A stretch of 40,913 nt of DNA from Flavobacteriales bacterium (GTDB taxonomy: Bacteria > Bacteroidota > Bacteroidia > NS11-12g > UBA955): positions 191,116 through 232,028 of the forward strand of contig CANMCY010000002.1 in NCBI GenBank assembly GCA_947496375.1. The letters are read 5' to 3'. Below, piece after piece: positions 1,182 through 29,228 of this stretch. The notes under the pieces are model-generated. The model ran no database searches and was not told where the DNA came from. It was given only the letters and a program-made list of their open reading frames with translations. A program made the position numbers and the translations under genes. Position 1 is the stretch's first letter; every line of letters begins with the position of its first letter.

Positions 1182-1877
1182 TTACCTTTTTAATGCTGTT
1201 CTTATTAATTCAAACTCTTTTGAGGTATTTTTAATATTAATTAAGTCTTCGTATGTCATGGCACCCAAATGCGCCTTCTCTGTTTCAAACTGAAAACTGT
1301 TTCTCAACGTAAAATGCTTCTCAAGTATGGTAGCCCCGTGTGCTGCCGCATACAGCGCTCCCGCATTTCCGAGGGTGTGGTCAGAAATACCTGAAAAAAT
1401 CGATGTTTGAAAATCCGGCATCTGATATTCATCTAATCGAGTGGGGTATTTTAGAACACAATATAAATACTTGGCATGGTGATGTTTTGTAATATTTTCA
1501 ACAGGATAATCAGCAGGCACTGAAACAAAAGTGGGAAGTTTTTGCTTCATAATTGATTCCACCAAATCAGGCATCTCATTATGCATTCTGGCTGCAACCT
1601 TCAAATAAGGCAGCTTTAAATCAAGACACCACGATAACCTATCATGGGTAAACGGGGTAGCAAACAATGGCATATTTAGGTTGTCAGCAAAGTGTTTTAG
1701 GTGTTTTAGCTGATCAAAATTCATGGAGAGGTAGGCCCGCTCACTTCCAAATTGTGTCTCTGTATAAAGCTGTACTTTTACAGCATCTGCACCTGCCATT
1801 TTCGATTGAAGAATCATTTGTTCTGCAACGGCGGTTATGCCATGAAACTGTGGCGCTATTTCTGATATTATAAACAT
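1182..1877 (-). CDS. NeuB-like sialic/nonulosonic acid synthase family protein lacking the SAF domain
   Basis: NeuB-family TIM-barrel synthases condense phosphoenolpyruvate with an aldose to give nonulosonic acids. The opening FIISEIAPQFHG and AGADAVKVQ (29-37) match the family's barrel start. GISDHTLG (163-170) and LEKHFTL (185-191) carry the two metal-binding histidines, H167 and H188. At 231 aa it ends where the barrel ends. Typical NeuB/SpsE proteins are about 340 aa, with a C-terminal SAF/antifreeze-like domain that closes the partner active site, and no such sequence follows in any frame here. It lies 4 bp downstream of an SpsF-type cytidylyltransferase gene. The family is well supported, but substrate and activity are not: it may use another aldose, need a partner, or be reduced in function. 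Confidence 0.75.
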   Translation of the reverse strand: MFIISEIAPQFHGITAVAEQMILQSKMAGADAVKVQLYTETQFGSERAYLSMNFDQLKHLKHFADNLNMPLFATPFTHDRLSWCLDLKLPYLKVAARMHNEMPDLVESIMKQKLPTFVSVPADYPVENITKHHHAKYLYCVLKYPTRLDEYQMPDFQTSIFSGISDHTLGNAGALYAAAHGATILEKHFTLRNSFQFETEKAHLGAMTYEDLINIKNTSKEFELIRTALKR

Positions 1878-1881
1878 TTCT

Positions 1882-2592
1882 TTATTTTTTTAACAATTCA
1901 AATTTATCACTAAAACTATAATTTAAAGGATTATAATTCATTTTTTTTAAGACTGAAATTATCATACTTAGATCTTCCTCTGTATCAACACTAAACTTTA
2001 CTTTTTCATACGAGTAATCCTTGGCGTCGCAGGATACAAATTGAACATTAAATTCTTCTTTATTCTCGTAAAAATAACCCATTACATGTTCAAAATGTTC
2101 GGGTTTGGAAAATTGGGAATATCCTTTCATAAATACTTCTCTTGTGATAATTTCCACATTACAACCCATCGGGAAACCCTTGTTGGGTATTGATGTAACT
2201 ACTTCAACATCGCTGGAACCAATAACCTCCAGGCCCTTTTTAACCACAGACATGTCATACAATGGCGTGTCGGCACAAAATCTAAACATGTGTGATATTT
2301 CATTGCGTTCATTTAATACATCAAAATAGCGGGATGCTACATTTTCTTCGTGACCACTATAAACACTAATATTATTTTTAAAGGCATAGTCTCTAATCGG
2401 GTCGTTATTTGAGCTAACGGATGTAACAATAATCAATTGCTCTTTTTTAAAAATAGTAAGTAGAGATTCCAGCACATAATCAATCATCGGACGGCCATTG
2501 ATTTCATACATTGTTTTTCCGGGCAGTCGACTGGATCCCATCCTCGCTTGTAACACAGCCAAGGGTGCTATTTTGTTATTTTCTTGAACCAT
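1882..2592 (-). CDS. SpsF/NeuA-like cytidylyltransferase
   Basis: This 236-aa protein has the nucleotidyltransferase signature near its N-terminus: LAVLQARMGSSRLPGK at about residues 11-26, followed by GRPMIDYVL. That pattern is typical of the SpsF (COG1861) relatives of CMP-sialate and CMP-Kdo synthetases. FRFCADTPLYD (about 102-112) is the position of the metal-binding aspartate segment. The likely role is CTP-dependent activation of an acidic sugar, presumably the product of the NeuB-like enzyme encoded 4 bp downstream. Its start overlaps the end of the dehydrogenase gene by 17 bp, implying translational coupling. The family is secure; the sugar substrate is inferred only from the neighbours. 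Confidence 0.8.
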   Translation of the reverse strand: MVQENNKIAPLAVLQARMGSSRLPGKTMYEINGRPMIDYVLESLLTIFKKEQLIIVTSVSSNNDPIRDYAFKNNISVYSGHEENVASRYFDVLNERNEISHMFRFCADTPLYDMSVVKKGLEVIGSSDVEVVTSIPNKGFPMGCNVEIITREVFMKGYSQFSKPEHFEHVMGYFYENKEEFNVQFVSCDAKDYSYEKVKFSVDTEEDLSMIISVLKKMNYNPLNYSFSDKFELLKK

Positions 2593-3550
2593 CCAAACTG
2601 TTTAATATTTCATTTAATATTTCTCTAGCTGCCTTTGACTCCGACTGTATGGTTAACCCTGCTATGTGAGGCGTTATTAATAAGTTATTGTTTCTTCTCG
2701 CATAATCTATCATGGGGTTATCTTCATCGTTTAAATAAGATTCCCTTTGAACTACATCAACTGCTGCCGCTTTGATTCTGCCCTCTTTTAATCCTTCTAA
2801 TAACGCATTTTCATCAATTAACTCACCCCTTGCTGTATTTATAAAATAAACCATATCCTTTAGCATCAGAAATTGTTCTTTACCAAAAATCTGTGTCCCA
2901 ATTCCTGTGTAATGATAATTTATACTAACGATGTCACAACTAGGCAGCATATCATTTAAGTCACTATATTGTATAACCCAGTTATCATTGATTTTTTTAA
3001 ACGGATCAAACGCAAATACCTTCATTTCAAAAACATTAGCATATTTGCTTAGATTTCCTCCAATTCTTCCATAACCTATAATTCCAATGGTCTTACCATT
3101 TAATTCCTCGCCACGCCAAAGGTGCTCATTTTCGCGCCACTCGCCATTCATTAAAACTGCATTTGATGCCGCTACAGTATTTCTCATCATTGCCAGCAAC
3201 AACCCGAAAGTGTGTTCAGAAGAAGCATAAATTTCATTTAAAAAAGCAGCATGTTTTATTGAACAGACCTTAACCCCGGAAGAAATAAAACCCGCCTCAT
3301 CTAAATGGGTAGTTCCCGTAGATGGAGTAGCTAATATTTTTAGTTTAGGCGCATATTGTAATATTGAAGTATCTATATAACTATCCGGGCAAGTGGGTGT
3401 AACCCAAATATGAACATCATTCAAGAGCTCCTTAATTTTACTGATTGATTGTTGATGTATAAATTGAACATTAAAATTATCCTCATATAGAGATTTTAAT
3501 TCACCAGGTAAAAAGTAAGATGGGGCTGAAAACAATAAATTTAACTTCAT
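2576..3550 (-). CDS. D-isomer-specific 2-hydroxyacid dehydrogenase
   Basis: The protein is an NAD-dependent oxidoreductase of the phosphoglycerate dehydrogenase family. The Rossmann motif GYGRIG is at 159-164. The catalytic triad is complete: Arg241 (INTARG), Glu270 (29 residues later, the expected spacing) and His295 (TPHIAG). I place the start at the ATG at 3550 (324 aa). A longer frame from 3613 would overlap the preceding gene and add an N-terminal segment unlike the family. In a glycan operon beside NeuB-like and cytidylyltransferase genes, it probably oxidises or reduces a 2-hydroxy/2-keto acid that is a precursor or decoration of the acidic sugar. The exact substrate is unknown. Confidence 0.85.
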   Translation of the reverse strand: MKLNLLFSAPSYFLPGELKSLYEDNFNVQFIHQQSISKIKELLNDVHIWVTPTCPDSYIDTSILQYAPKLKILATPSTGTTHLDEAGFISSGVKVCSIKHAAFLNEIYASSEHTFGLLLAMMRNTVAASNAVLMNGEWRENEHLWRGEELNGKTIGIIGYGRIGGNLSKYANVFEMKVFAFDPFKKINDNWVIQYSDLNDMLPSCDIVSINYHYTGIGTQIFGKEQFLMLKDMVYFINTARGELIDENALLEGLKEGRIKAAAVDVVQRESYLNDEDNPMIDYARRNNNLLITPHIAGLTIQSESKAAREILNEILNSLDGSRK

Positions 3551-3554
3551 TTTT

Positions 3555-4646
3555 TTATTCAAAAACATATTCAGCAATATGATTTGCAATAATCTCGGCT
3601 CCATTGGTAGCAATATCGTGTTCGAGCATGTTTTGCTTCAACACATCATATTCCCCATTAAATAACTGATCGAGAATTTTCCCTGGATTATGAACCAGTA
3701 ACTGCAATGATGTGAAAGAACCTAATCCCAGTTGCTTTATAAACATAATGTTTTCCTGCATTTCCGGATTCAGGGCCTCTCCAAATAGTAACATTGGCGT
3801 GCGGCAAGAAATACATTCAGAAATGGTATTAAAACCGGCTCTTCCTACAACCAAATCCATATAACCAATATGATCAAGCAAAAAAGTTCCTTCCTGAAAA
3901 ACATGAATATTTTCTGCGGTGAAACCAGGGTCTTTGGGTAAATAAAAGTTGTACTCTTCAAGATGTGATAGTTTTACTGCCAGCTCCCTTATGGCTATGT
4001 CATTAACTGCAGATCCACTATCAATGAGCATAACTGATTTTCGTTCTGGTGTATTTGCTACTATCTCTTTTCTGTGTTTTCTAACAACCAGTGGAACCTG
4101 AACAGCATTATTCCTGTAGTGGTTTGTAATTTCTTTCGGTGTAAATGGCGGGAAAAAGAGCATATCGGCGCTCTCTGCCATTCGCATCCATTTCATGATC
4201 AGATCCTGACTGATTACAGGAGGGTAAAATTTATTGAAAAACCAATCCCATGTAAAATGGGCAACACCAAAAGCAGGCTTTTTTAGTTTTTGTGCAATTT
4301 CAAAGGCCTCAAAAACAAAGTCTGAAAGAATAAAATCAACATTACATTCATTTATTTCTTCCTGTATGTATTCATCGCTTAATTTTTGATATGTTTTATA
4401 ATATGACCTTATTCCTTCCGCATTGGGAGTACCATCCGGTAATTTATGCCATAAAATGTTATTGAATTTTTCGCGATATACCAAATCAGGAATCATTGTT
4501 TTTGCCTGAGATAAGTGTTTCTGGGTTTGCAAAATCATTTTCAATTCCGGCTTTATTAATTTCAATTCTTCAATGATTGCCGATTGTCTCACAATGGGCC
4601 CAAAACCTTCATCTGTAATATACAATTTACCTTGCATAATCCTCAC
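3555..4646 (-). CDS. GT-B glycosyltransferase, MurG/GT28-like
   Basis: The 363-aa protein has a two-domain GT-B pattern. The N-terminal loop EGFGPIVRQSAI (about 13-24) corresponds to the GxGHxxR loop of MurG/PseG-like proteins, but the usual His is replaced by Pro. The C-terminal nucleotide-sugar site reads MDLVVGRAGFNTISECI (about 263-279), characteristic of GT28 C-terminal domains, and is followed by RTPMLLFGE. It overlaps the GT4 gene upstream by 20 bp. Starts at 4646 and 4637 are both possible and change only three residues. A UDP-sugar hydrolase like PseG is an alternative because of the neighbouring nonulosonate-type genes, but the length and the intact C-terminal domain favour a transferase. 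Confidence 0.65.
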   Translation of the reverse strand: MRIMQGKLYITDEGFGPIVRQSAIIEELKLIKPELKMILQTQKHLSQAKTMIPDLVYREKFNNILWHKLPDGTPNAEGIRSYYKTYQKLSDEYIQEEINECNVDFILSDFVFEAFEIAQKLKKPAFGVAHFTWDWFFNKFYPPVISQDLIMKWMRMAESADMLFFPPFTPKEITNHYRNNAVQVPLVVRKHRKEIVANTPERKSVMLIDSGSAVNDIAIRELAVKLSHLEEYNFYLPKDPGFTAENIHVFQEGTFLLDHIGYMDLVVGRAGFNTISECISCRTPMLLFGEALNPEMQENIMFIKQLGLGSFTSLQLLVHNPGKILDQLFNGEYDVLKQNMLEHDIATNGAEIIANHIAEYVFE

Positions 4647-5861: not shown

Positions 5862-6998
5862 TCAATGAATTACGGAACAAATTTCTTCAATCTGTTTTGT
5901 CTCTAGCTCATAATACATCGGCAACCTCAATAGTGTGTCACCGTAACGGTCACTTTGTGGCAGATGCCGGCCATCGTGACGAGAAGTGTAATATGGACTG
6001 CTGTGCAGACTTAGGTAATGAAACACAGCATGTGTTTCAGCCGCCTTTAACCCGGCAGTAATGGTTTCTCGTTGATGCAAATCACGGCAAACCACATAAA
6101 ACATGTGGGCATTGTTACTGGCATATTCCGGTAAATAGGGCAATGTGAATTTACCTGTTGCCTGAAGCGGCTGTAACAATTGATGGTATGTATCCCATAT
6201 AGCAAGGCGACGCTGCTGAATCTTTTTAATTTCCTGCAACTGTGCCCATAAAAATGCGGCAATGATTTCTGAGGGCAAAAAAGAACTTCCCACATCCACC
6301 CAGCCATATTTGTCTACCTCGCCCCTAAAAAAAGCACTGCGATTCGTTCCCTTCTCCCATATTATTTCTGCCCTTTCAGCAAAAGCCGGGTCATTCACAA
6401 CAAGCATACCGCCCTCGCCGCTAATGATGTTTTTGGTTTCATGAAAACTAAACGCGGCCAAATGTCCAATGCTCCCCAATGCCCGTTTTACGCCATCTCT
6501 ACCTGTATAATAACTGTCAATGGCCTGCGCAGCATCTTCCACTACCCAAAGACCATGTTTGCGGGCCAGGTCCATAATCATGTCCATATCACAAGCCACA
6601 CCTGCATAATGAACAGGAACAATGGCTTTGGTTTTGGGTGTAATTAATGCCTCAATTTTCTGTTCATCTATACCTGGATGATCAGGGCGGCTGTCTGCGA
6701 AAATGATGCGAGCCCCCCTGAGCACAAATGCATTGGCAGTGCTCACAAAAGTATACGAGGGCATAATCACTTCATCCCCGGGTTGTATATCCAGCAATAT
6801 GGCAGCCATTTCCAATGCATCGGTGCAACTGGTTGTGAGCAGACATTTGCCCATACCGTAATTTTCTCGGAAAAACCGTTGGCATAGACCGGTATACTTT
6901 CCATTGCCGGAAATTTTACCCGTTGCAACCGCATCCGTTATGTATTCGGTCTCTTTGCCGGTCAGATGAGGTTTATTAAACGGAATGCGATAACTCAT
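5862..6998 (-). CDS. wecE: dTDP-4-amino-4,6-dideoxygalactose transaminase (WecE/RffA family)
   Basis: This 378-aa PLP enzyme of the DegT/DnrJ/EryC1 family is very close to enterobacterial WecE/RffA in its diagnostic blocks: GDEVIMPSYTFVSTANAFV (74-92), VPVHYAGVACDMD (127-139), VEDAAQ (153-158) and SFHETKN (184-190), with the PLP-binding lysine K189. WecE transfers an amino group from glutamate to dTDP-4-keto-6-deoxyglucose, giving dTDP-Fuc4N. The C-terminal third is less like RffA but of normal length. It overlaps the amidohydrolase gene upstream by an ATGA junction. It supplies the amino sugar that the neighbouring ATP-grasp and aldolase genes could decorate. RmlA/RmlB, which make its substrate, are not in the window. 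Confidence 0.9.
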   Translation of the reverse strand: MSYRIPFNKPHLTGKETEYITDAVATGKISGNGKYTGLCQRFFRENYGMGKCLLTTSCTDALEMAAILLDIQPGDEVIMPSYTFVSTANAFVLRGARIIFADSRPDHPGIDEQKIEALITPKTKAIVPVHYAGVACDMDMIMDLARKHGLWVVEDAAQAIDSYYTGRDGVKRALGSIGHLAAFSFHETKNIISGEGGMLVVNDPAFAERAEIIWEKGTNRSAFFRGEVDKYGWVDVGSSFLPSEIIAAFLWAQLQEIKKIQQRRLAIWDTYHQLLQPLQATGKFTLPYLPEYASNNAHMFYVVCRDLHQRETITAGLKAAETHAVFHYLSLHSSPYYTSRHDGRHLPQSDRYGDTLLRLPMYYELETKQIEEICSVIH

Positions 6999-7780
6999 GA
7001 ATCAGTTCCTATAAAGCGCTCCAGATTTTCGTAAGCAATATTTTTTTGTTTCTCTTCAGGTATACCTGTTTTTGCTACAACTTCTTCAAAACGAGTTCTA
7101 AGCTGTAAATGAGACCATTCCGGATGATCCGTACCCAGGCAAATACGCCTGTCAAACGATGAAAATAAAAAAGTCAGGTCTTCATCAACAGAACTACCCT
7201 CATATTTCATGAATGTCATGGATAGATCTAGCAACAGGTTGGAATTATGCCGAACCAGTTCTGCATATTTCATTACCTGTACATCACCACCGTGCATGAG
7301 CATTACCTTGCAGTCTGGAGCATACGAAAGGGCTTTAACCAAGCTATAAAAAGGATCTGTATGCGGATATTTACTTACGCGGCAATGCATGTAGGTACAA
7401 TATAGCACCCTTAGGTCCATTGAGTATGCTGCAGCAAAAAGCTTACCCAATCTGGCATCAGAAGGATCCATCCCCACAAGTCTGGGATGAATTTTAATGG
7501 CACGGTACCCAATGGACTTTATCTCTTCAAGTTCCCCCATTACATTATCGTTGGAAAACCCCACTGCCGCCACCGGAATCAATGACTGATGGCCGGAACA
7601 CATTTTCATAAAATCCGCGTGATTATACCCTTCGACACCGGGCAAACCAACAGCCATGGCTTTGTAAAATCCCGCACTTTTCATGTCGCTTAGCAAAGTG
7701 TCAATGCCGGCATCATAACTGCCATGCAGCCACTTTCCACTGAGTGTAGGGTGTGTGAGAGAATCAAACATTTTCATCAT
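6995..7780 (-). CDS. Amidohydrolase-superfamily protein with altered N-terminal metal motif
   Basis: The 261-aa protein looks like a COG2159 (amidohydrolase-related) TIM barrel. Visible strands include AVGLPGVEGYNH, IGYRAIKIHPRLVGMD, KVMLMHGGDV and RRICLGTDHPEW; the last provides the usual Asp near the barrel end. The canonical N-terminal DxHxH is here FDSLTH, so the first metal His is a Leu while the second (H10) is kept. Many members are metal-dependent hydrolases or decarboxylases acting on acids. Altered ligand sets occur in some decarboxylase-like groups. The start overlaps the stop of the GT2 gene by 4 bp (ATGA); M1 and M2 are both possible. A role in forming or trimming the acyl/keto-acid substituent is inferred from the operon only. 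Confidence 0.7.
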   Translation of the reverse strand: MMKMFDSLTHPTLSGKWLHGSYDAGIDTLLSDMKSAGFYKAMAVGLPGVEGYNHADFMKMCSGHQSLIPVAAVGFSNDNVMGELEEIKSIGYRAIKIHPRLVGMDPSDARLGKLFAAAYSMDLRVLYCTYMHCRVSKYPHTDPFYSLVKALSYAPDCKVMLMHGGDVQVMKYAELVRHNSNLLLDLSMTFMKYEGSSVDEDLTFLFSSFDRRICLGTDHPEWSHLQLRTRFEEVVAKTGIPEEKQKNIAYENLERFIGTDS

Positions 7781-8718
7781 AGCGCCTCATCATTGATGGT
7801 ATCTGAAATCAAATACCTGGGCCGGTTCTTGGTCTGGTCAAATACATTGGAGATATATATAGCACATATTCCTATGGCTGTGATAATAAGACCACTAAAA
7901 AACATTATAACCACCATCAGGGATGTCCATCCCTCCATAGATCCCTTTGTGTAATACTGATAAATAAAATATACAATTCCAAGCAATGCCAGCAAAGAGG
8001 TGGCTACCCCTACCTGAAAAGTAATGTGCAGCAATTTATTGGAATTCGTGGTGGCTGTATTCAATGCGAGGGTCATCAACTTGCGAAAATTGTAAGCACT
8101 CTTACCTGCATACCGACCTCTATGTTCCACATCCACAATGGCCCTATCAAAGCCAGCCCATTGGATGGCCCACATATAGGTTTTATGGTAATCTCTGTAC
8201 TGATGATAGGCGTTTACAACCTTGCGTGTGAGCAAAGAATAGTTAGAAAGATTGGGGTCAATATCATAATGGCTGATTGTTTTTAAAAATCTGTAATAGC
8301 CCTTTGCAGTAAAATTTTTCCATGCACTGTGCTCCCTTTGAATAAGCCGTGCAAAAACAATATCCGCCCCTGTTTCTTTCTGTTTTGCCAGTAATGCAGG
8401 TATATACTCCGGATCATGCTGTAAATCACAATCCATAAGCACTACAAATTCACCCTTAGCGTGTTCAAATCCTGCAGCAATGGCATTGTGCTGTCCAAAA
8501 TTGCGACTCAAGCGAATGCCTTTGACCCTGTTATCTTTCATCCCTTCATTAACAATGGCCTGCCATGAGTTTTCCGGACAACGATCATCCACCAATATAA
8601 TTTCGAATTGATGGGTAACATGCTCAACCGCCTCTTTAATGCGTTTTACCAGTTCCGGTACAATTTCTTTTGCTTTGTAAACCGGCGAAACTATGGATAT
8701 CATGGGGTTTAATGTCAT
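7777..8718 (-). CDS. GT2 glycosyltransferase, GtrB/ArnC/DPM1-like, with two C-terminal TM helices
   Basis: The 313-aa protein begins with a GT-A nucleotide-sugar domain: ISIVSPVYKAKE (7-18), IILVDDRCPEN (40-50) and the DxD motif MDCDLQHDPE (95-104). SRNFGQHNAI (71-80) is typical of polyprenyl-phosphate glycosyltransferases such as GtrB, ArnC and dolichol-phosphate mannose synthase. Two hydrophobic helices follow at about 229-251 and 262-286. Such enzymes load a sugar onto undecaprenyl phosphate so that it can be used outside the membrane. It lies between the amidohydrolase and the unknown 313-aa gene, with 4-bp overlaps on both sides, so it may load the sugar these enzymes make. Confidence 0.88.
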   Translation of the reverse strand: MTLNPMISIVSPVYKAKEIVPELVKRIKEAVEHVTHQFEIILVDDRCPENSWQAIVNEGMKDNRVKGIRLSRNFGQHNAIAAGFEHAKGEFVVLMDCDLQHDPEYIPALLAKQKETGADIVFARLIQREHSAWKNFTAKGYYRFLKTISHYDIDPNLSNYSLLTRKVVNAYHQYRDYHKTYMWAIQWAGFDRAIVDVEHRGRYAGKSAYNFRKLMTLALNTATTNSNKLLHITFQVGVATSLLALLGIVYFIYQYYTKGSMEGWTSLMVVIMFFSGLIITAIGICAIYISNVFDQTKNRPRYLISDTINDEAL

Positions 8719-9656
8719 GGCTGCTGTGATAATAATTTTTTTATTAACCCTATTTTATCTGTCTCTTCCTCTCGGGGTGTGCGCACATTTCCCCGGCCAT
8801 CTGCTATACCAATAATGGCTGAGGGTTGATTTATATTATCAAGAATAATGGCCCCGTCTTTACCCATAGTACCCCCCGCAACCACGTCTATCCCCTGCAT
8901 GGTTTCGGCTCCCATTACGTGTTTAACCAAATCGTCTGTTTCCAGCAAATGCATAACCAGACTGGATAATCCGGCCCGCACGTCTACCCTGTAAATTCCA
9001 CAATTCATATTCCGGGCGGTCTGCAAAACGTCAACACTAAAATTTCCAATGCCTACATCAAAAAAAGTAGTTCCTGCATGGATATTCATCCTGTCAAGTT
9101 GTGAAAGGGTTGTGGTTCTAATACCGCCGCCCACTACAATATCATATTGCTGATTGGCAATAGGCAAAGCAGATGTTTGCACTCCCCACTGTGTAAGTTT
9201 CCAATGAAGTATTTCATGTAAACTCCCTGTTCCGGTAAGCAACACATTCATACCCCTAATATCACCAAGAAGCCGCTGAATCAATTGAATGGCGGCATCT
9301 GCCCATGTATGGTTATCACTGTACATAAAAAGACCGGAGCCGGGCCAATCTTTTTTTATGGCAGCAATGAGTTGTTCTGAATTTTCCCTTTTTCTGTCAA
9401 TATCAAACACTACTGCCGAAAACACTCCTCCGGCAAGCCTTACAACGGTCTCAAGAAATGATACTGAAGACAACTCTACAAAGGCAAGTAAATTGGTTAC
9501 GCTTTCGCGGATATAAGGGATTTGTATTGCATGCTCATCAGAAACCGGATATTGCTGTATAACCAGCACAGGGGGTTTGCCCGTCTTCTTGAAAAGCGTC
9601 TTAACATCCTGCACTCTTTCCATAAAAATATCCTCTGCCTGCTGCTCTGTCATCAT
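8715..9656 (-). CDS. Unrecognised 313-aa protein with two possible Rossmann-like segments
   Basis: I do not recognise a family. The first 130 residues alternate hydrophobic strands (PPVLVIQQYPV, FSAVVFDID, GSGLFMYSD) and helices. A possible dinucleotide-binding turn follows: GMNVLLTGTGSLHE (135-148), then a helix and YDIVVGGGIRTTTL (171-184), then TTFFDVGIGNFSVDVL (196-211). The C-terminal part has a glycine-rich VVAGGTMGKDGAIILDN (258-274) and an acidic/basic patch at 288-301. There is no signal peptide or TM helix. It overlaps the aldolase gene and the GT2 gene by 4 bp each, so it is firmly part of this module. An oxidoreductase or dehydratase acting with the aldolase is a guess. It does not resemble acetaldehyde dehydrogenase (MhpF), the usual partner of this aldolase family. 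Confidence 0.7.
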   Translation of the reverse strand: MMTEQQAEDIFMERVQDVKTLFKKTGKPPVLVIQQYPVSDEHAIQIPYIRESVTNLLAFVELSSVSFLETVVRLAGGVFSAVVFDIDRKRENSEQLIAAIKKDWPGSGLFMYSDNHTWADAAIQLIQRLLGDIRGMNVLLTGTGSLHEILHWKLTQWGVQTSALPIANQQYDIVVGGGIRTTTLSQLDRMNIHAGTTFFDVGIGNFSVDVLQTARNMNCGIYRVDVRAGLSSLVMHLLETDDLVKHVMGAETMQGIDVVAGGTMGKDGAIILDNINQPSAIIGIADGRGNVRTPREEETDKIGLIKKLLSQQP

Positions 9657-10705
9657 GATTTGTTTTGATACGTTTTGGGGTAGTAAACCCCTGCGTTTGC
9701 CATACTTTTTATACTTTGGGCCACTGATTCTATGAGATCTGCCGTTGGATTTTCTTTGTTAATTTTACTTACCTCCATGATGAGTGTACGGTAATCTATA
9801 GCATATTTTTCAGCCATTTCATTAATCACATGTAAGTAGGAATCATGAAACTGGGCGTAGCCCATCACCAGCTGCAAATCATCAGACCCTTTCAGTTCAT
9901 TGCTGCGATTGCTGATATATTGTGTACTTAGCCGGGCAACCTTTAGCGGATCAATACCACATGATTTCCCCATTTTTTCCAAAATAACCAGCATGCTTTC
10001 CGTCTGGGCATTACCGGCACCGCGGCCCATGCCCATCAGGGTAGTATCTACCACAGACGCTCCATTTTCAATGGCTGCTATATTATTGGCGTTGGCCAGT
10101 AGCAAATTATTATGTCCATGAAACCCAATGCGGGTTTTGAGGCCGGAATGCATCATTTCAATATAATGACCCACCTCAGCAGGCAACATTCCACCGGCAC
10201 TGTCTACCAATGAAATTACATCTGCACCTGCCTGTTCAATAGTCATTGCCCGTTTACACAATTCATAGGGTGTTACAGCATAGGATTTCATAAAATTATA
10301 CCCAACTTCCAGCCCTACTTTTTTTGCGAATTCTATGTACTCAACAGCCGTGTCACTTTTTGAAACATCGGTACCTATCCGTATAAAATCACAACCCCAT
10401 TCTGCAGCCAGGCGTATGTCTTCAAGGGTACCTACACCGGGGATGAAGAAAAAACCCACGCCCGCATTTTTTTTCACTGACACGGCTATAGCGGCAAATT
10501 GTTCATCCGTTAATATGGAACGAACCCCTTTGCGGGTGGCGCCCATGCCTATACCATTGCCTATTTCGATATACCTGAAACCCATCTCAGCCAGACCGGA
10601 TGTGATATCACGAACATCTTCAGCCGTCCATTGTCCATCTATGACATAACTACCGTCACGTATGGTGCAATCCAATATGTCTAAGGTTTTTTCAGACAAT
10701 GACAA
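9653..10705 (-). CDS. DRE-TIM metallolyase (HMGL-like / 4-hydroxy-2-oxovalerate aldolase-like)
   Basis: The 350-aa protein is a DRE-TIM barrel. LDCTIRDGSY (11-20) gives the metal-binding Asp12 and catalytic Arg16/Asp17. DSAGG (168-172) and FHGHNN (195-200) provide the metal-binding His196 and His198, and GMGRGAGNAQTE is the conserved glycine-rich loop. Family members make or break C-C bonds between pyruvate or acyl-CoA and an aldehyde or keto acid. The resemblance is closest to MhpE-type 4-hydroxy-2-oxoacid aldolases, and the second half includes a DmpG-like helical tail. It overlaps the ATP-grasp gene by 14 bp and the unknown 313-aa gene by 4 bp. I infer that it makes a hydroxy-keto acid used to decorate a sugar. 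Confidence 0.85.
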   Translation of the reverse strand: MSLSEKTLDILDCTIRDGSYVIDGQWTAEDVRDITSGLAEMGFRYIEIGNGIGMGATRKGVRSILTDEQFAAIAVSVKKNAGVGFFFIPGVGTLEDIRLAAEWGCDFIRIGTDVSKSDTAVEYIEFAKKVGLEVGYNFMKSYAVTPYELCKRAMTIEQAGADVISLVDSAGGMLPAEVGHYIEMMHSGLKTRIGFHGHNNLLLANANNIAAIENGASVVDTTLMGMGRGAGNAQTESMLVILEKMGKSCGIDPLKVARLSTQYISNRSNELKGSDDLQLVMGYAQFHDSYLHVINEMAEKYAIDYRTLIMEVSKINKENPTADLIESVAQSIKSMANAGVYYPKTYQNKS

Positions 10706-11852
10706 CCTCCAGTTTATTTAGTGCATTTTGCACCGTTTGATTCAATGCTTCTCGGTTTTCGGCCAGCGCCAACAAATAACCCGGCCTGCTCCTTCCATCG
10801 GCAACCACACCCAATACATCACCCTCTTTTCTTTCCAGGTCCGCATCCAAAACACCTTCTGAATTTTTCATGGCTTCAATGCCATGCAATTTACTTATCC
10901 TTCCGGAAGATAGCATGATAAATTTTAATACTCCTGCACCACCGGATCTAAAGATGGGGGCTGGCACCGTTTGAAATGCGTTTTCAATAACCCATCCCAT
11001 TACATCAAATGCATTCATGGCGGGCATCAAATGGGTAATTACCTTGCTTCCGCAGCCCCTTACGGCAAACTCAATCAATTGAACCTTATCGCCCGTTACC
11101 ATGATTTCTATGTGAATTACCCCGTTTTTAATCTCAAAACCCGTTACCAGTTTTCCTACAAATTCTATAATGGATGACTGTTGTGAGGGGCTATAAGATC
11201 CCGGATAGTTGAGTTCTAGGTCATACCGATACGGCAATGCAGATTTTATTTTATCGCATATTCCAAGTATATAGGGCTTACCTTCATGAACCAGCGCTTC
11301 CACGGAACCTTCTGTACCTGTCATCATTTCTTCCAGCATTACCCTTCCGGATATGGATGCCTGCATGGCCTCGGAAAACTTGAGCAGCAATTCTTCTTTG
11401 TTATTTACTACGGAGACCCCTCGTGAAGACTGGCTATCCACCGGTTTAACAAGCAAGGGGAAACCCTGCTTTTCTGCACTGATTATGGCCTCTGTATCGG
11501 ATGAAACACAATAAAATTCAGGGCCGGGTAAGGCAATTTTTAACGCATGTTGTCTCATCGCATACTTGTTGGTTGCGCGCAAGGCCAATAACTCACTATG
11601 ATAACGTAAACCCATTTTTTCCGCCACATAGGCAGCGGTAGGCACACCGATATCCGCAGCCGTTAGCACCCCGTTTATTTGGTGTTCCAGGGCCCATTGC
11701 AATGTTTTCTCCTTATCCTTTAAATCAATGGCTTCAAAATGATGTGCAAATGGCTTTCCCTCTGCGTTAGAGGACCAGTCTGTTGCACAAACTTCAATGC
11801 CCATGGAAACCGCTTTCTGAATCCATGGAACCTGCCAGGTTCCTGCGCCCAA
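10692..11852 (-). CDS. ATP-grasp ligase
   Basis: The protein has the PurK/carbamoyl-phosphate-synthase-like ATP-grasp layout: a pre-ATP-grasp domain (LGAGTWQVPWIQKA, then VLTAADIGVPTAAYVAEKMG), the P-loop region FPLLVKPVDSQSSRGVSVV, a hinge VMLEEMMTGTEGSVEAL, and the metal-binding end VIHIEIMV...IEFAVRGCG. Such enzymes form an acyl-phosphate and ligate a carboxylate to an amine or thiol. The start is unclear. A TTG at 11,852 gives 386 aa but cuts the first beta strand. The frame is open back to the stop at 11,889-11,891, and the residues KNKKLLLL just upstream complete a normal strand, so initiation at a CTG at 11,876 is plausible. No in-frame ATG exists there. The gene joins the aldolase gene by a 14-bp overlap. 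Confidence 0.85.
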   Translation of the reverse strand: MGAGTWQVPWIQKAVSMGIEVCATDWSSNAEGKPFAHHFEAIDLKDKEKTLQWALEHQINGVLTAADIGVPTAAYVAEKMGLRYHSELLALRATNKYAMRQHALKIALPGPEFYCVSSDTEAIISAEKQGFPLLVKPVDSQSSRGVSVVNNKEELLLKFSEAMQASISGRVMLEEMMTGTEGSVEALVHEGKPYILGICDKIKSALPYRYDLELNYPGSYSPSQQSSIIEFVGKLVTGFEIKNGVIHIEIMVTGDKVQLIEFAVRGCGSKVITHLMPAMNAFDVMGWVIENAFQTVPAPIFRSGGAGVLKFIMLSSGRISKLHGIEAMKNSEGVLDADLERKEGDVLGVVADGRSRPGYLLALAENREALNQTVQNALNKLEVVIV

Positions 11853-11888
11853 TAATAATAACTTCTTATTTTTCAGATCCTTATCGAT

Positions 11889-12665
11889 TTACTTGTTTTC
11901 AAGATCGGCAGAGTCAGCAACTGATGTGTTTCCCGATACCTTGTTTGTGGCAAAAATCATCATCCAGCGGCCCTCAAATGATAACCAGTCGGCAGCTTTA
12001 TGTTCATCAATTTTTTCAACCCCATGCGGTATTTGTGCATTAAAGAATATTACATCTCCTATATCGCATAAATCATCGCCAAAAATCTGGTCATCGCTTT
12101 CTCCTTCCACATATACCCCACCGGTTTCAAAATCTTCCCCTTTTTTAGACATGATTAAAAGTGGTACGGTGAGTTGATGATGGTCTACCGGATCACTATG
12201 TTTATTGAGGCCGCCTGTACCTTTGGGATAAAACTGAAACGACAGGCGGGCGATGCAGCCATCCTCAGGCACCATTCCCATAAATTTATTTTTAGGAAGA
12301 CCATTGATGGCATTTTTCAGATAAAAACCATCTTTCAATACTTCAAATAAATTGAATATATCCTGGTTCCATGGAAAAAAAACAAACTGATGAAAACACC
12401 CTTTCACGTAGGCCCGTTCGTCCCACCTATTCAGCCGGTGAAAATTAGGGGCTCCTGCCTCAATGGAATGATAATTGGGCAAAGAATTTCTACCAATATC
12501 CGTTAGATATTTTCGAACTTCCAAAATCCATTCTTTGTCATACATGTTTTTGAAAATGTAGACTGCCCCGTTTTGTATGTCTTTTCTGATATCCAGAATG
12601 GCTGCATCATCATTCAAAACGGTTCGATAATCGTTGATGAAATGGATATTATTTGCTTTTAACAT
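11889..12665 (-). CDS. 2-oxoglutarate/Fe(II)-dependent dioxygenase (phytanoyl-CoA dioxygenase-like)
   Basis: Numbered from the ATG at 12,665 (258 aa), the protein shows the iron-binding facial triad of the double-stranded beta-helix oxygenases: H156-x-D158 (NKHSDPV) and H214 (AQIPHGVE). R233 (FEGRWMM) is placed to bind 2-oxoglutarate. I chose this start because it falls 7 bp after the preceding stop; a longer frame from 12,755 would run inside the oxidoreductase gene. Enzymes of this type hydroxylate small molecules, lipids or sugars. Its place between the flavin oxidoreductase and the ATP-grasp ligase suggests oxidation of a sugar or acyl precursor. The substrate is unknown. Confidence 0.8.
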   Translation of the reverse strand: MLKANNIHFINDYRTVLNDDAAILDIRKDIQNGAVYIFKNMYDKEWILEVRKYLTDIGRNSLPNYHSIEAGAPNFHRLNRWDERAYVKGCFHQFVFFPWNQDIFNLFEVLKDGFYLKNAINGLPKNKFMGMVPEDGCIARLSFQFYPKGTGGLNKHSDPVDHHQLTVPLLIMSKKGEDFETGGVYVEGESDDQIFGDDLCDIGDVIFFNAQIPHGVEKIDEHKAADWLSFEGRWMMIFATNKVSGNTSVADSADLENK

Positions 12666-12672
12666 GATGGTA

Positions 12673-14259
12673 TTATTTGGATTCGTGGTACTCTTCTTCG
12701 GTATTAATTTCCCAGAGGTTTGACTTGTTTGTATTGTTGGCCAAAATATTATCAACGGCCACCATAGCAGTTAGCATACTATGATCGCTGTTATTGTACT
12801 TATGCATCCCATTTCTGCCTATTGGATAAAGGTTTTTCAAATCATTAAGGTATGATATCACTTTAGGAAAATCGGCATAACTACCGGTATATGCAGGATA
12901 TGTCTTTTTTACCCTCACAATGGTTGAATCCAGCACCGCATCGGAATCAATTATTCCTATTTTCTCCAATTCCTGAATTGCCATTTGAATAAAACGACTG
13001 TCTTCCAAAGCCCATAAATCATCCCCTTCATTACAAAAATATTCAAGACCCATCCAAATAGTATTCTTATCGGCAACCAGATGGGGGCTCCAGTTATTGA
13101 ATATTTGCAAACGCCCTATCCTCACATCTCTCTCTTGAATATAAATCCAATTATCCTGAATTAGTCCTTGTGGTTGATTTTTGTCTTTTACTTTTAAAGA
13201 ACGACATAACAAACCAACGGTAATAAAATCCCTATAATTTAATTGTGTGGCAACTTGCCTGACCTCTGGATCAACTTCAAATTCAAATGCTTCAAAGAGG
13301 TCTTTAATTGGCATCGTGCTGAAGACCAAATCTGCCGAAAAGGATATAATATTTTGGTTTTCATCCCTGCAAACAACCTCATTAATCCCTTCTTTGATGT
13401 TGCCTTTCAAACCAATTACTTCACAGTTAAGGATTATTTGACCCCCTTTCACTTTGATTTTTTCAGCCACCAATTCCCACATCTGACCTGGCCCGAGTTT
13501 TGGGTACAAGAACTTTTCTATCAAGGAGGTTTCTGTGTTTTTCTGACTGATGCCTTTGGCTCTACCTGAGCCAATAGCATTACGCAGAGCATGTTTAATG
13601 GTCTTACTTACAGACAGGCCTTTGATTCTTTGTGCACCCCAGTCTTTGCTGATTTCATTGCATTTAAATCCCCAAACCTTTTCGGTATAATCTTTAAAAA
13701 AAGTTAAATACAAAGCTTTACCAAAACGATTGATGAAAAAATCCTCCAATGTTTCTTCTGGCTTAATGGGTTTTACCCTAATATATAAATAACTAAACAA
13801 GATTTTAAACATACGCACAACCCCAAGGTTTTTAATCGTCTCAACACTTAAAGAAACAGGGTATGAAAAAAATTTTCTCAGAAAATAAATACGGCTGAGC
13901 CTGTTTCTCACCAACATCACACGATTAGGATTCGAAATCATTTTACTATCCGTGGTTTCTGTAACCACCTGCTTTGTTTGCCCATGATATTTCACTATAA
14001 GATTATCATCCAACTCGGCACTGTCAATAGGCATGATATTCAGCCACCAATCCATTACCCTGTCACTTTTGCTAAAAAAACGATGACCACCAATATCCAT
14101 GCGATTTCCCTTATAGTTTACCGTTTTTGAAATCCCACCAATATCCGAAGAAGCTTCCAAGACTATTATGTCAAATTTATCTCCCCGTGTTAATAATTCA
14201 TAGGCAGCCGTTAACCCGGCGGGACCGGCACCTATTAAGACAACTTTTGTCTGATTCAA
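12673..14259 (-). CDS. FAD-dependent NAD(P)-binding oxidoreductase, Glf/protoporphyrinogen-oxidase-like
   Basis: The 528-aa flavoprotein has the FAD-binding dinucleotide motif [17 protein letters not shown] (7-23), then [18 protein letters not shown], and [10 protein letters not shown] (58-67), typical of UDP-galactopyranose-mutase-like and amine-oxidase-like proteins. Its C-terminal FAD contact is [18 protein letters not shown]. Such proteins are common in glycan loci, where they act as sugar mutases or oxidoreductases. The length exceeds classical Glf (about 370-390 aa), so pyranose-furanose mutase activity is only one option. It starts with an ATGA overlap with the polytopic protein gene and ends 7 bp before the dioxygenase gene. 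Confidence 0.8.
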
Positions 14260-15554
14260 TTTGTTTGCTTGTTTGTTGTTTTACCGTTTTTATTGAATAA
14301 CCATATATTTCCTCTATAAAGGAAGAAGTCGATTAATAGGGCAGACATAATGATAAAATAGGGATATATATAGATTAATAACCTCTCCCAATCATATATT
14401 CCCCCAATAGATACTGTTGCCATGGCTGTAAAAGTTAGAATTGGAAACAAAAACAATATTGGGCTACTGGGGGTGCATAATTTCGAAAACCTTATTCCAA
14501 TCATCATTATTATCATAATTACCAAAACCATGTAACGATATTCTATAAGTATATCAAGCATTTTAGTAATTATAAATTTCCAATAAATCCCTTTTTGTTT
14601 GCATCTTTGAGTAAACGCTTCAAGCCGACTAAATGATATGTTTTTTGTGTCGATAATATTGATTACAAAAAGCATATCATCTGTAGGTCTGGTTATTCCC
14701 GGAAAACGATTGGCATTTTTCTTGTAATAATCTATGCAAAAGTTATTTAAATAAAAAACAGAAACATAAAAGCCCCTTCCAAGGGTAGAATCAATCATAG
14801 AAACCAGTTCTTTATCCACATCATTCTTATAAGAGCCCGAAAGACAAATATTTGCCAGATCATTGTTCAAGGAAACCATGGTTATACCGTTGTAACCAAA
14901 TTTACTATGATTTGCAACCTTAAATAACCATAAGCAACTGGTCACCAATATCAACATTACAATACCTAGCAGTTGTTTTTTATAATTGCTTTTATTCATG
15001 CTATACAAAACAAAGAATAAATAAACTACGAACAATAAAATAAATGTAGGCTTTGTAAACACAGCAATGCCAATAAGAATAGGTAATATCAGACGGGCTA
15101 TGTGAGAATTGTCCTTAATCATTACAACAAAAATAAAACCAAGCAACACTGACAGAAAAACACAAAATGTTTCAGGTAAAATCATGGCATTGAAACGATT
15201 TATAACTTCCCATTGCATAAAAAACAAACTAAACAATAAAACCAACCAGTGTTGATGAACTGTTTTTCTCAATAGCAGATAAAACAATAAAACACTAAAG
15301 AAAGAACAACAATAATTAAATAGCAATACATTTTCACCTAGGCCTGCAATGTTTCCAGGATTTAAAAATGCCAGTATTGTCGGAAAAACCACCATCCGGA
15401 AAGGATTGACCTCACTGTTAAAAATGTTAGAAGGATAAAAGTAACTAACTGTATCAGAATTATATAAAATAGCACCTGTATGCAAATATTTATAGATTTT
15501 ATAAATCAAAACTATTAGAATTAATATTATAAAATAAATATTATCTTTTTTCAT
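14256..15554 (-). CDS. Polytopic membrane protein, possible GT-C glycosyltransferase
   Basis: The 432-aa protein is very hydrophobic, with roughly ten predicted TM helices. After the first helix ([17 protein letters not shown]) there is an external-type loop with an acidic residue, [12 protein letters not shown]. That arrangement is seen in GT-C enzymes, where an Asp in the first loop is catalytic. A long extracytoplasmic loop lies at about 225-320, followed by four C-terminal helices. It overlaps the genes on both sides by 4 bp. A GT-C transferase using polyprenyl-linked donors is the best guess, which would fit the GtrB-like enzyme in the same operon. A polymerase is a weaker alternative. 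Confidence 0.55.
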
Positions 15555-17962: not shown

Positions 17963-19282
17963 TTATTTATGCTTTTTATCCATGACTATGGACTTTAGAC
18001 TGTAATAATCCGCTACACAGCGGTTCAGCCAATAATTTGGGTCACTGCCCACATCTTCAAATTTTCTTGTTGTCGGCTCTTTGATGTCATCCGCTTTACC
18101 CAACACCACCACCTGCCCATGCAGTTTTCTCAGTTTTGCATCCCGTTGCAAGACCAGCCGGCGGGCATTGCGGGCATCCCATGTCTGATACAGTCCAATC
18201 CCCAAAAAACAAAACAGTACTGCATATTGCAGCGGCCTTGTGAATCGCAGAGAGAGGGAAGAGAAGGCCTCCATCAGTGCTGCCAGCCCCGAAACACCAT
18301 ACATGGTCATAAACGCCATAAAATGGATGTTGGTGCGCGGTGCGTGCATACCCGGAAATGCCATAAAAAAGTACGCTGATATGACGGCCGCAAACAAAAA
18401 CCGGTGGGCAAAGAGATGATATTTCAGGCCCTTTTTTTCAGACATCCCTGCCCAAGCACCCAGCATCCCGGCTAACAAAAACATCCAGGTTACAGGGGTG
18501 TTGTACTCCATGATGTTTTCCAATAAATGGCCCGCATTGAAATAAATGGTCCAGATGTGGGTAAGGTTCGATTTGTCCATGCCAGCCAGGCGATTGGCAT
18601 TGCCGGGAGCAAGAATGACCATTAAAAATCCTGAAATAATGGGCATCATCAGCCATAAGTATTTAAGCCATTGCTTGCCCAATTGGTTCCATTCAGTTGC
18701 AGCATGGGTGGCAAACAGAAATAACAGACCTGCCACCGCATTCGGTGATGCTGTACCCACATAAAACAAAACCGGAAGGGTTCCCAACACAAAACGTAGG
18801 GTAGGCCTATAGTAAATGAACAGTGCATATCCGGCCAAAATCAATATGATATCGAGGTTATATCCTGCACCGGTACTCCAATACAGGGTTTGAGATGAAA
18901 AAGGAAAAGCACATAGCCAAAGCATAGCCGTCATAACCGACAAAGAGATGATTCTTTCCTTACGGTTTTCCGAACGTGGCATAAAAACCCTCAAAACCAA
19001 TCCACCGAATAACATGAATAACACGCTCGCCAGCATGGGGCCCAACCAGTATTTACCACTCCAAAGGCCCATCCTCGCAACGATAAAAGTAATGCTCATG
19101 CCCCGACCGTCCCAGGTCGTGTAATGGTGCCACATGTTTTGAAATATTCCTTGTGACTGCACCTCCGGCATAAAACAAAAGTCATCGGCCGTGAACCAGG
19201 TAAAAAAGGGTTGCACTAAAAACAACATCAAGCTCAACAGGGCCAGCAACCACAATAAACGATTGGATTTGATTGTATTCAT
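17963..19282 (-). CDS. Polytopic membrane protein, DUF6056-like / GT-C-like
   Basis: From the ATG at 19,282 (439 aa), which overlaps the upstream stop as TAATG, the protein has about ten hydrophobic helices. The first is followed by FTWFTADDFCFMPE and then TTWDGRGMSITFIVARMG. The TADDFCF...W.GR arrangement is typical of a family of bacterial membrane proteins (DUF6056-like) related to GT-C transferases, with acidic residues in the first external loop. A soluble C-terminal tail of about 60 residues ends in a lysine-rich KKHK. A longer reading from 19,324 is unlikely because it would lie within the GT2 gene. The role is unproven; polyprenyl-dependent glycosylation of the exported chain is a reasonable guess. 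Confidence 0.65.
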   Translation of the reverse strand: MNTIKSNRLLWLLALLSLMLFLVQPFFTWFTADDFCFMPEVQSQGIFQNMWHHYTTWDGRGMSITFIVARMGLWSGKYWLGPMLASVLFMLFGGLVLRVFMPRSENRKERIISLSVMTAMLWLCAFPFSSQTLYWSTGAGYNLDIILILAGYALFIYYRPTLRFVLGTLPVLFYVGTASPNAVAGLLFLFATHAATEWNQLGKQWLKYLWLMMPIISGFLMVILAPGNANRLAGMDKSNLTHIWTIYFNAGHLLENIMEYNTPVTWMFLLAGMLGAWAGMSEKKGLKYHLFAHRFLFAAVISAYFFMAFPGMHAPRTNIHFMAFMTMYGVSGLAALMEAFSSLSLRFTRPLQYAVLFCFLGIGLYQTWDARNARRLVLQRDAKLRKLHGQVVVLGKADDIKEPTTRKFEDVGSDPNYWLNRCVADYYSLKSIVMDKKHK

Positions 19283-20226
19283 TATTTGGGAAAGATTTGT
19301 AAATTCAGGTAGCGGTAACCCCATTGTTTAAACACAGACTTACCCAGGCAACGAAAAAAAGTGGCAGCTATGGCTGCCGCCGGCTTATTTAAAGGGCTAA
19401 TATACATCCCTACAAGTTTTATAAACCTGCTCCACTTGTGTTCATCTATATGGTGAATGATGTACCTGTTAAGTCGTGAAAGCAGTATGCTGCGCTTTTC
19501 TTGACTAGTTACTTTGGTCAACTCCGCGCGATGGGTAGCCCACAAGGCCGGAATGATAGCCATGCCATCATCATGGGTGGATTGGTTTGCGTGAACCCTG
19601 TAATAAAACAATCGCTCTTGCATTCCATAGAACGAACAACCGCTGTCAGACAATCGCAGCCATAGCTGGTAGTCTTCCGCATTCTGGATACGCAGATCTT
19701 CATCAAAACCACCCACAGATAACACAGTCTTTCTTTTTACCATGGCTGATAGCATGGGGATGCTGTAACCCTGCAATTGCTTTGTATAAAATGCCGCGGA
19801 ATCCTGCAAACCCACAGGTGCATCCATCGGAAAGCCCTCCGGATTGTTTTCATCCTTCAGCCACCATCCTCGGCAAAAAACCACATCGGCATTTTGTTGT
19901 TGTATGCAATTTACTTGCAATGTCAATTTATCCGGATGCCAAAGATCATCGGCATCCAGAAAAGCCAGGTATTCACCGGTAGCATGGTAAATGGCAGTGT
20001 TTCGCGCCTTTCCTTGTCGGCCGTTGGATTGTTTGATATAATGAATTCGTTCATCTGCCGAAGCCAGCTCCTGCACAATTTTTGGGGTTTGGTCGGTGGA
20101 ACCATCATCAACTACTATCAGCTCCCAATTGGGATAGGTTTGCTTTTGAACAGATGCGATGGTTTGTTCAATATACTTTTCAGCATTGTAGGCCGGGGTG
20201 ATGACTGATATTAGGTTATTTTCCAA
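19282..20226 (-). CDS. GT2-family glycosyltransferase
   Basis: The 314-aa GT-A enzyme is a textbook GT2. ISVITPAYNAEKYIEQTI (6-23) opens the nucleotide-binding fold, LIVVDDGSTDQTPKIV follows, and LAFLDADDLWHPDKL holds the DxD metal motif. A later AEDYQLWLRLS provides the putative catalytic-base ED motif. About 80 C-terminal residues are helical and basic, probably membrane-associated. The start overlaps the end of the next GT2 gene upstream by 11 bp, and its stop overlaps the start of the polytopic protein gene. It is the last of three consecutive GT2 genes. Donor specificity is unknown. Confidence 0.9.
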   Translation of the reverse strand: MENNLISVITPAYNAEKYIEQTIASVQKQTYPNWELIVVDDGSTDQTPKIVQELASADERIHYIKQSNGRQGKARNTAIYHATGEYLAFLDADDLWHPDKLTLQVNCIQQQNADVVFCRGWWLKDENNPEGFPMDAPVGLQDSAAFYTKQLQGYSIPMLSAMVKRKTVLSVGGFDEDLRIQNAEDYQLWLRLSDSGCSFYGMQERLFYYRVHANQSTHDDGMAIIPALWATHRAELTKVTSQEKRSILLSRLNRYIIHHIDEHKWSRFIKLVGMYISPLNKPAAAIAATFFRCLGKSVFKQWGYRYLNLQIFPK

Positions 20227-28587: not shown

Positions 28588-28599
28588 TTATTATAAAGC

Positions 28600-28980: not shown

Positions 28981-29059
28981 TTAGTTCCTTAGCATTTGAG
29001 CGGATTTAACTGTTTTTCCAATACCGAAGGGTGTAATCTCTATTATTATTCAAAGTATA

Positions 29060-29167
29060 TTAGCGTCTATTTTCTGTGACAATATGTATGACATTTACTG
29101 TGACAGCATCTGTGACATTTAAAGTGTCATTGTATATCAATTTTTCTTTTAAAAATGCAATTCTCAT
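29060..29167 (-). pseudogene. Second, degenerate copy of the AlbA_2-like tail segment
   Basis: A 35-codon frame reads MRIAFLKEKL, then NDTLNVTDAVTVNV and ends VTENRR. It aligns with the tail of the neighbouring remnant (MQITLFKKEV, SDTLNITENVTENV, ESRQ), including the polar NVT repeat. The frame stops where the winged helix would begin, and an in-frame stop lies just upstream. This is probably a leftover from a tandem duplication of the same gene or from recombination between relatives. The remaining bases between 28,981 and 29,228 carry no other recognisable gene. Confidence 0.45.
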
Positions 29168-29228
29168 TCCAACTCAGGCAACATAATTGATTTATCTTGT
29201 GCTTACATTACTAAGGTCATTGCTAAAT

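Follow-up and report, generated by a model that had tools for sequence, protein, structure and literature searches.

The DNA analysed here, referred to below as the window, is a stretch of 40,913 nt from a Flavobacteriales bacterium, and it carries a block of closely packed minus-strand genes at 5862–11876, which we extended to 12665. An earlier note on this DNA had described six genes overlapping one another by 4–14 bp and had read them as a sugar-decoration module. All six open reading frames (ORFs) lie on the minus strand at the coordinates given below and are free of internal stops, and adjacent genes overlap, in order, by 4, 4, 4, 4 and 14 bp, as claimed. The assigned families also proved sound in Pfam and NCBIfam searches: WecE, Amidohydro_2, a family 2 glycosyltransferase (GT2), an HMGL-like/DmpG-type aldolase and an ATP-grasp protein, the remaining 313-residue protein having no Pfam match. 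The boundaries of the block need correction, in that a further gene at 11889–12665 had been missed and the ATP-grasp start placed at 11876 is uncertain.

The gene at 5862–6998 encodes a WecE-type dTDP-4-keto-6-deoxyglucose 4-transaminase that scores above the cut-offs of the equivalog model NF008687 (568.6 bits versus 375) and of TIGR02379 (527.3 versus 434.85). That it makes dTDP-Fuc4N is supported at the family level, and the genome also encodes the dTDP-glucose dehydratase on which WecE depends (TIGR01181, 465.7 bits, above cut-off). The product of 6995–7780 is predicted to be a TIM-barrel-type hydrolase or lyase of a rare Amidohydro_2 subfamily (PF04909, E = 2.9e-8). The GT2 encoded at 7777–8718 (PF00535) is closest to the PgfS (187.8 bits, cut-off 500) and ArnC (147.1 bits, cut-off 529) models; neither cut-off is reached, and the protein likely belongs to the general GtrB/ArnC kind of polyprenyl-phosphate glycosyltransferase, probably as a polyprenyl-phosphate sugar synthase. 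The gene for the 313-residue protein (8715–9656) and that for the aldolase (9653–10705) are considered in separate sections below.

The ATP-grasp ligase (10692–11876) matches PF13535 (60.2 bits versus a gathering threshold of 27, E = 2.4e-16) and, at its C-terminus, the L-amino-acid-ligase domain PF18603, LAL_C2 (50.9 versus 29.4, E = 1.9e-13). Its start is uncertain because there is no ATG or GTG at the N-terminus; the end at 11876 is a CTG located 12 bp past the preceding stop codon, and the homologue in a second species of the genus, here called G002, begins with an ATG a few residues further out. The additional gene (11889–12665) encodes a 258-residue protein without a Pfam or NCBIfam match, which looks like a 2-oxoglutarate (2OG)/Fe(II)-oxygenase-like protein, judging from motif residues and fold comparison. 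Residues H186, D188, H244 and R263 (numbering of the 288-residue ORF), which form an HxD...H motif plus an arginine, are invariant in all four aligned sequences, including that of the window. Its structural model has a predicted local distance difference test score (pLDDT) of 57, and 49 of the 50 Foldseek matches listed are 2OG-oxygenase or IPNS-type folds, some by title and others which we take to be so, the sole exception being yeast Cdt1. These matches are weak: TM scores to the query are 0.31–0.47, and a single match reaches E ≤ 0.001.

Occurrence of the block in other genomes

Co-occurrence of the genes outside this genome had been named beforehand as the observation that would decide against the module if it were absent, and it was found in four places: G002, Chlorobium ferrooxidans, plasmid pL11-D of Pseudoroseomonas cervicalis (carrier strain PL22-11A), and a contig labelled viral (L085). 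Across the five loci compared, the window included, an ATP-grasp type occurs in five, the aldolase, the amidohydrolase and the oxygenase in four each, and the 313-residue family, WecE and a GH130-like gene in three each. Close relatives of the oxygenase (41–71% identity) adjoin module genes in all three other loci in which they were found.

In G002, WecE, amidohydrolase, GH130-like, glycosyltransferase, 313-residue homologue, aldolase, ATP-grasp and oxygenase genes stand in one run, and the genes flanking this set differ from those that flank the block in the window. In both Bacteroidota species WecE is co-directional with the block, overlapping it or lying within 13 bp. C. ferrooxidans encodes a natural fusion of 681 residues that joins the aldolase to a 313-residue homologue (locus positions 8846–10891), which strengthens the link between these two proteins; its ATP-grasp gene lies about 2.7 kb away, and the locus is one for pseudaminic acid, with PseG and with PseI above cut-off. 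When the fusion was searched against 81 genomes of the order to which C. ferrooxidans belongs, the matches listed, apart from its own, were confined to residues 2–342, the aldolase part.

Plasmid searches yielded two records with the oxygenase and six with the amidohydrolase, and pL11-D was the best in both. On this plasmid a divergent WecE gene is followed by those for the aldolase, the GH130-like protein, the amidohydrolase, the oxygenase and the ATP-grasp protein, and the five apart from the GH130-like gene lie within about 6.3 kb; there is no 313-residue gene and no adjacent glycosyltransferase gene at this locus. The weaker oxygenase match, on an Indioceanicola plasmid, is accompanied by WecE and by an ORF that we judged by eye, without Pfam support, to be of the ATP-grasp type. 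The next-best amidohydrolase match (28%), on a Natrinema plasmid, has no module gene among its annotated neighbours.

L085 was the sole confirmed viral-labelled locus found with the amidohydrolase, using an alignment that did not contain L085. It carries genes for an oxygenase, a GH130-like protein, a divergent ATP-grasp-like protein and an amidohydrolase one after another, followed by a DegT-like ORF, and no aldolase or 313-residue gene was seen there. Because L085 was a row in both query alignments, the viral scans with the oxygenase and the GH130-like protein show only that no further locus was found. The contig also has an SDR-like ORF and a second oxygenase that weakly resembles ectoine hydroxylase. 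In phages, no oxygenase was found, and the amidohydrolase matched one record (24%, E = 5e-4).

Several of these families are rare. Among 395 sampled Bacteroidota genomes, the oxygenase profile at E ≤ 1e-10 matched one, which is the genome of the window and matches by construction, and the amidohydrolase profile at E ≤ 1e-20 likewise matched only this genome, whose protein is itself in the profile. This rarity makes co-location of the two genes by chance unlikely. Members of the 313-residue family turned up in 2 of 58 relatives and in 2 of the 395 sampled genomes, the window's own genome being counted each time, and a pattern-limited scan of genome contigs, which more distant members would escape, gave 2 confirmed loci from 56 pattern matches. 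No member was found in plasmids, phages or viral contigs.

The aldolase

The aldolase has a strong PF00682 match (E = 8.9e-35), a DmpG_comm domain match below gathering (E = 1.5e-4), and is the only match in its own genome. It misses the cut-off of the equivalog TIGR03217 (243.5 bits versus 286) and passes that of the broader subfamily NF006049 (265 versus 229). DmpG and BphI are 4-hydroxy-2-oxovalerate aldolases, each of which pairs with its own dehydrogenase partner. Like them, the module aldolase is similar over nearly its whole length, has a weak match to the communication domain and stands beside a gene for a dehydrogenase-like partner; unlike them, it falls below the equivalog cut-off, and its partner has no DmpF-type profile match.

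With DmpG (1nvm) as the reference, the equivalents of Arg17, Asp18, His200 and His202 are kept in all four module aldolases. These proteins differ from DmpG at two places: in four of four, Tyr stands for His21 and His for Tyr291. The solved DmpG-type chains shown have His and Tyr at these places, again in four of four. His21 and Tyr291 of DmpG have catalytic roles. Their exchange may mean that an acid/base pair was preserved with its partners swapped. A role in stereocontrol has been assigned to Tyr290 of BphI (PMC3962088).

As a signature, the exchange is, on the aligned residues, weaker than it appears, given what is found in RDGG-type and RDGxH-type proteins. Of 34 other aldolases, 19 have His at the His21 place and 15 have Tyr or Phe. 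The 19 proteins of the RDGxH type, 18 of them from viral-labelled contigs, have at the Tyr291 place Phe (14), Met (2), Val (2) or Tyr (1). The 15 of the RDGG type have Tyr at the His21 place in 14 cases; at the Tyr291 place, where the alignment is uncertain, 7 have His and 8 have Pro. The set used for residues and tree comprised these 34 rows, which came from 57 scanned loci, and 4 module rows; loci were dropped if no open frame of sufficient length fitted the motif, as were identical sequences. In the tree, the module aldolases belong to neither the DmpG-type group (100/99) nor the RDGG-type group (100/100). That they form one clade of their own was unsupported: two changes are needed, they form a single group in 10% of bootstrap trees, and their branches are long.

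Among the best 20 of 282 plasmid matches to the aldolase, all but two records carry a dmpG annotation. Relatives of the aldolase are also encoded on 48 viral-labelled contigs, 18 of which have a DegT-type transaminase as well, and none of the 48 contains another of the rare module genes at E ≤ 1e-5.

The 313-residue protein

Beyond the lack of a Pfam match, the 313-residue protein gives one weak NCBIfam match far below cut-off (hemA, E = 0.034), and its G002 homologue has a weak match to PF02882 (E = 0.021). An AF2 model built from three sequences (pLDDT 63) contains a predicted Rossmann-like core at about residues 112–231, for which structure comparison gave Z scores of 10.6–13.0 to glutamate dehydrogenases, dipicolinate synthase A and 2-hydroxyacid dehydrogenases; the best match (Z 13.0) covers 122 residues at 3.3 Å on this pLDDT 63 model. 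Residues 226–267 are poorly modelled and are part of the best conserved stretch (about 223–289). A GxGS stretch is present in the proteins of the window and of G002. The protein is possibly an NAD(P)-dependent dehydrogenase, on the evidence of the modelled fold. It was considered as a DmpF-like partner of the aldolase and rejected because it has no Pfam or NCBIfam profile match of that kind. A pathway of the PylC/PylD (pyrrolysine) type, raised by weak PylC matches, was also set aside; no PylD-like match to the 313-residue protein was found in Pfam, NCBIfam or PDB sequences.

Loci with a GH130-like gene

The GH130-like gene is common to G002, the Pseudoroseomonas plasmid and L085; the window has none. 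The G002 gene has matches on 32 plasmid records, and at E ≤ 1e-20 the corresponding profile matched 9 of 370 Bacteroidota genomes, that of the window not among them. We examined six plasmid and nine genome regions, all picked through this gene. A WecE/DegT transaminase occurs around it in three of the six plasmid and six of the nine genome regions, and WbqC in four of six and four of nine, with the same counts for an acetyltransferase. Like the block in the window, these cassettes have a WecE/DegT transaminase; unlike it, they have WbqC and an acetyltransferase in place of the ATP-grasp, aldolase, oxygenase and amidohydrolase genes. Their frequent combination of WecE/DegT, WbqC and acetyltransferase suggests that the acyl part has been swapped, and we infer one 4-amino-sugar system with exchangeable N-acyl parts, of which the block in the window would be the ATP-grasp version. 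In the window, tblastn with one WbqC (PF08889) query detected no such gene at E ≤ 1e-6.

Seven loci from unrelated bacteria, picked through the GH130-like gene with WbqC nearby, have a WecE/DegT transaminase in six cases and an acetyltransferase in five. On a Rhizobium leguminosarum plasmid, the WbqC gene is in two pieces that flank an IS3 transposase gene (7033–8933 of the locus).

Genes flanking the block

On the minus strand, 7 bp upstream of the oxygenase gene, lies a gene for an FAD/NAD(P)-binding PRK07208-type protein (12673–14259; NF005546, 799.3 bits versus a cut-off of 418), which, judged by spacing, may be in the same transcription unit as the module. In G002 this gene does not stand beside that of the oxygenase. 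Next upstream, also on the minus strand, is a gene for a membrane protein (14256–15554) that is possibly a GT-C transferase, the match to PF13231 (PMT_2) being weak and below gathering (E = 0.0045). The G+C content is 41–46% in the six module genes, 30–39% in the next three genes upstream, 42% in the fourth gene upstream and 33–36% in the adjoining downstream DNA, a pattern that marks the locus as patchy and mosaic.

Elsewhere in the window, genes for a short NeuB-like synthase (231 residues), a cytidylyltransferase and a D-2-hydroxyacid dehydrogenase adjoin one another at 1182–3613, perhaps as a second unusual sugar-acid pathway beside the module. The genes at 27334–30083 encode an ABC-2 permease and an ABC ATPase, the latter with a Wzt_C match that is weak and stays below gathering; they point to glycan export, probably by an ABC transporter, which would fit a periplasmic decoration. 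A DUF6056 membrane protein is encoded at 17963–19324 (E = 1.2e-31).

Discussion

The gene packing, the protein families, the LAL_C2 domain on the ligase and the co-occurrence in other loci lead us to propose that the block is an exchangeable module for making an unusual N-acyl group and joining it to a 4-amino-4,6-dideoxy sugar of a surface glycan, a proposal we hold to be probable, if only by a little. The recurrence of much of the set in distant bacteria gives it the look of a real, exchangeable unit. In the pathway we envision, WecE would provide dTDP-Fuc4N, for which there is support at the family level. The aldolase would form a carbon–carbon bond, most likely joining a pyruvate enolate with an aldehyde or ketone, so that a 4-hydroxy-2-oxo acid results, and the 313-residue protein, its fusion partner in C. 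ferrooxidans, would reduce or reductively aminate the product. The oxygenase and the amidohydrolase might tailor the acid, for example by hydroxylation in the one case and by hydrolysis, decarboxylation or hydration in the other. The ATP-grasp enzyme would then activate the carboxylate and form an amide with N4 of the sugar, either on the nucleotide sugar or at a later stage, and the GtrB/ArnC-like glycosyltransferase would load the sugar onto undecaprenyl phosphate for use in the periplasm. An origin of the ligase and the aldolase in purine or amino-acid synthesis, which the earlier note had named as the other way in which the idea could fail, is not supported: no such model reaches its cut-off among those listed (the best 25 of 61 for the ATP-grasp protein and the best 25 of 31 for the aldolase).

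Several observations weigh against this proposal. The gene set of the module varies between loci. The ATP-grasp proteins of three loci are 25–53% identical to that of the window, and the L085 protein is 23% identical to that of G002, so the proteins of different loci may not be orthologous. The GxGS stretch has been lost from the C. ferrooxidans fusion, an argument against simple NAD binding by that protein. No flippase of the GtrA or ArnE type was identified in the block. The role of WbqC in N-acylation is only inferred, because WbqC is functionally uncharacterised (PMC5532660). Finally, the 20-kb stretch of C. ferrooxidans has no WecE equivalog, amidohydrolase or oxygenase, and the position of its aldolase, 313-residue and ATP-grasp trio amid pseudaminic-acid genes means that Fuc4N need not be the acceptor.

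This last observation is a ground for an alternative, in which the trio makes a small amide or pseudopeptide-like side group for several amino sugars, a pseudaminic acid precursor being the acceptor in C. ferrooxidans, while WecE, the glycosyltransferase, the oxygenase and the amidohydrolase belong to another branch of the same glycan. It would be in keeping with the ketomemicin clusters, which use an aldolase, a dehydrogenase and an ATP-grasp ligase for free pseudopeptides (PMC11943689). The tight, co-directional placement of WecE against the block in two Bacteroidota species (overlapping, or at most 13 bp away), and its divergent position beside the block on the Pseudoroseomonas plasmid, argue for WecE as a part of the system, and we consider this alternative unlikely, if worth keeping in view. 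One could also envision two independent sub-modules combined by chance, one (aldolase, 313-residue protein and ATP-grasp ligase) making and attaching the acid and the other (oxygenase, amidohydrolase and GH130-like protein) acting on the 4-amino sugar or the glycan. C. ferrooxidans has only the former within the stretch examined, and L085 has the latter with a divergent ATP-grasp gene and neither aldolase nor 313-residue gene, as this scenario would predict. Set against it is the gene order of the Pseudoroseomonas plasmid, where aldolase, GH130-like, amidohydrolase, oxygenase and ATP-grasp genes are interleaved, as are the genes of both sets in the window and in G002, and we think it less probable again.

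A third scenario dispenses with a new acid altogether: with the aldolase as a catabolic or dead relative, it would fall to the ligase to add a ready-made amino acid such as alanine or glycine to give an ordinary aminoacyl-Fuc4N. The L-amino-acid-ligase C-terminal domain would suit such an activity, and amino sugars bearing N-linked amino acids have been described (PMC10609480). The aldolase is, however, present in four of the five loci and fused to the 313-residue protein in one, and it is not obviously dead, since the equivalents of R17, D18, H200 and H202 are retained in four of four module aldolases; of the explanations considered here, this one seems to us the least probable.

Returning to the N-acyl module, we have compared it with systems already described. 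The O-antigen loci of Flavobacterium psychrophilum, with interchangeable R-group genes for Qui2NAc4NR, provide a known case of exchangeable N-acyl genes for a 4-amino sugar (PMC6519341). The likeness is that strain-variable genes there N-acylate a 4-amino sugar with an unusual hydroxy acid; the difference is that the set predicted there consists of an acyl carrier protein, ketoacyl synthases, a reductase and a PglD-type acyltransferase, and the one found here of an aldolase, a dehydrogenase-like protein and an ATP-grasp ligase. The claim that no described pathway has this set stands in so far as our literature search, which covered titles and the openings of abstracts, met no paper on the gene set and no combination of aldolase, dehydrogenase and ATP-grasp ligase in a glycan locus. 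It has to be qualified in that the logic of these three enzymes is known from the ketomemicin (ktm) genes, one small cluster independent of nonribosomal peptide synthetases, a likeness drawn at the level of enzyme types (PMC11943689). The ktm cluster differs in adding a dehydratase, an amidinotransferase and a pyridoxal phosphate (PLP)-dependent C-acyltransferase, and the part of that source used here names no sugar genes (PMC11943689). A Pfam/NCBIfam scan of the eight genes at 5862–14259 detected neither an amidinotransferase nor a PLP C-acyltransferase. Arn and Gtr systems are undecaprenyl-phosphate sugar systems. The module resembles them in having a DegT-family transaminase and an ArnC/GtrB-like GT2, and is unlike them in that neither a deformylase nor a flippase of the EamA or GtrA type was identified in the block and in that its acylation genes differ from ArnA/ArnD.

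As to the identity of the acyl group, hydroxylated 5-oxoproline acyls are listed on Vio4N (4-amino-4,6-dideoxyglucose), Qui3N and Fuc3N (PMC10609480), and the O-polysaccharide of Flexibacter maritimus, also of the Bacteroidota, has a 2-hydroxyglutaryl amide on a 4-amino sugar (PMC3210612). The O-antigen structures listed with 5-oxoproline acyls include those of V. cholerae O5, P. shigelloides O74 and V. anguillarum V-123 (PMC10609480). By analogy alone, both acyl types would fit the kinds of enzyme in the module. Titles and abstract openings gave no described pathway for the 5-oxoproline type. A bolder version of our proposal is that the aldolase–dehydrogenase pair, in which the His and Tyr of DmpG have traded places, makes an amino acid, branched or hydroxylated, for the ATP-grasp enzyme to join to the 4-amino sugar, and that the pair, the ligase, the oxygenase and the amidohydrolase together supply the route so far missing for N-acyl groups of the hydroxylated 5-oxoproline (pyroglutamoyl) type. 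We offer this as speculation, with little confidence.

N-acyl groups on amino sugars help to set the O-antigen serotype in F. psychrophilum (PMC6519341), and the enzymes behind unusual groups of this kind are often unknown. A compact gene set spread over Bacteroidota, Chlorobium and an alphaproteobacterial plasmid provides targets for work with purified enzymes, and it offers an oddly built aldolase, two families that Pfam does not cover and a means to predict such decorations from sequence.

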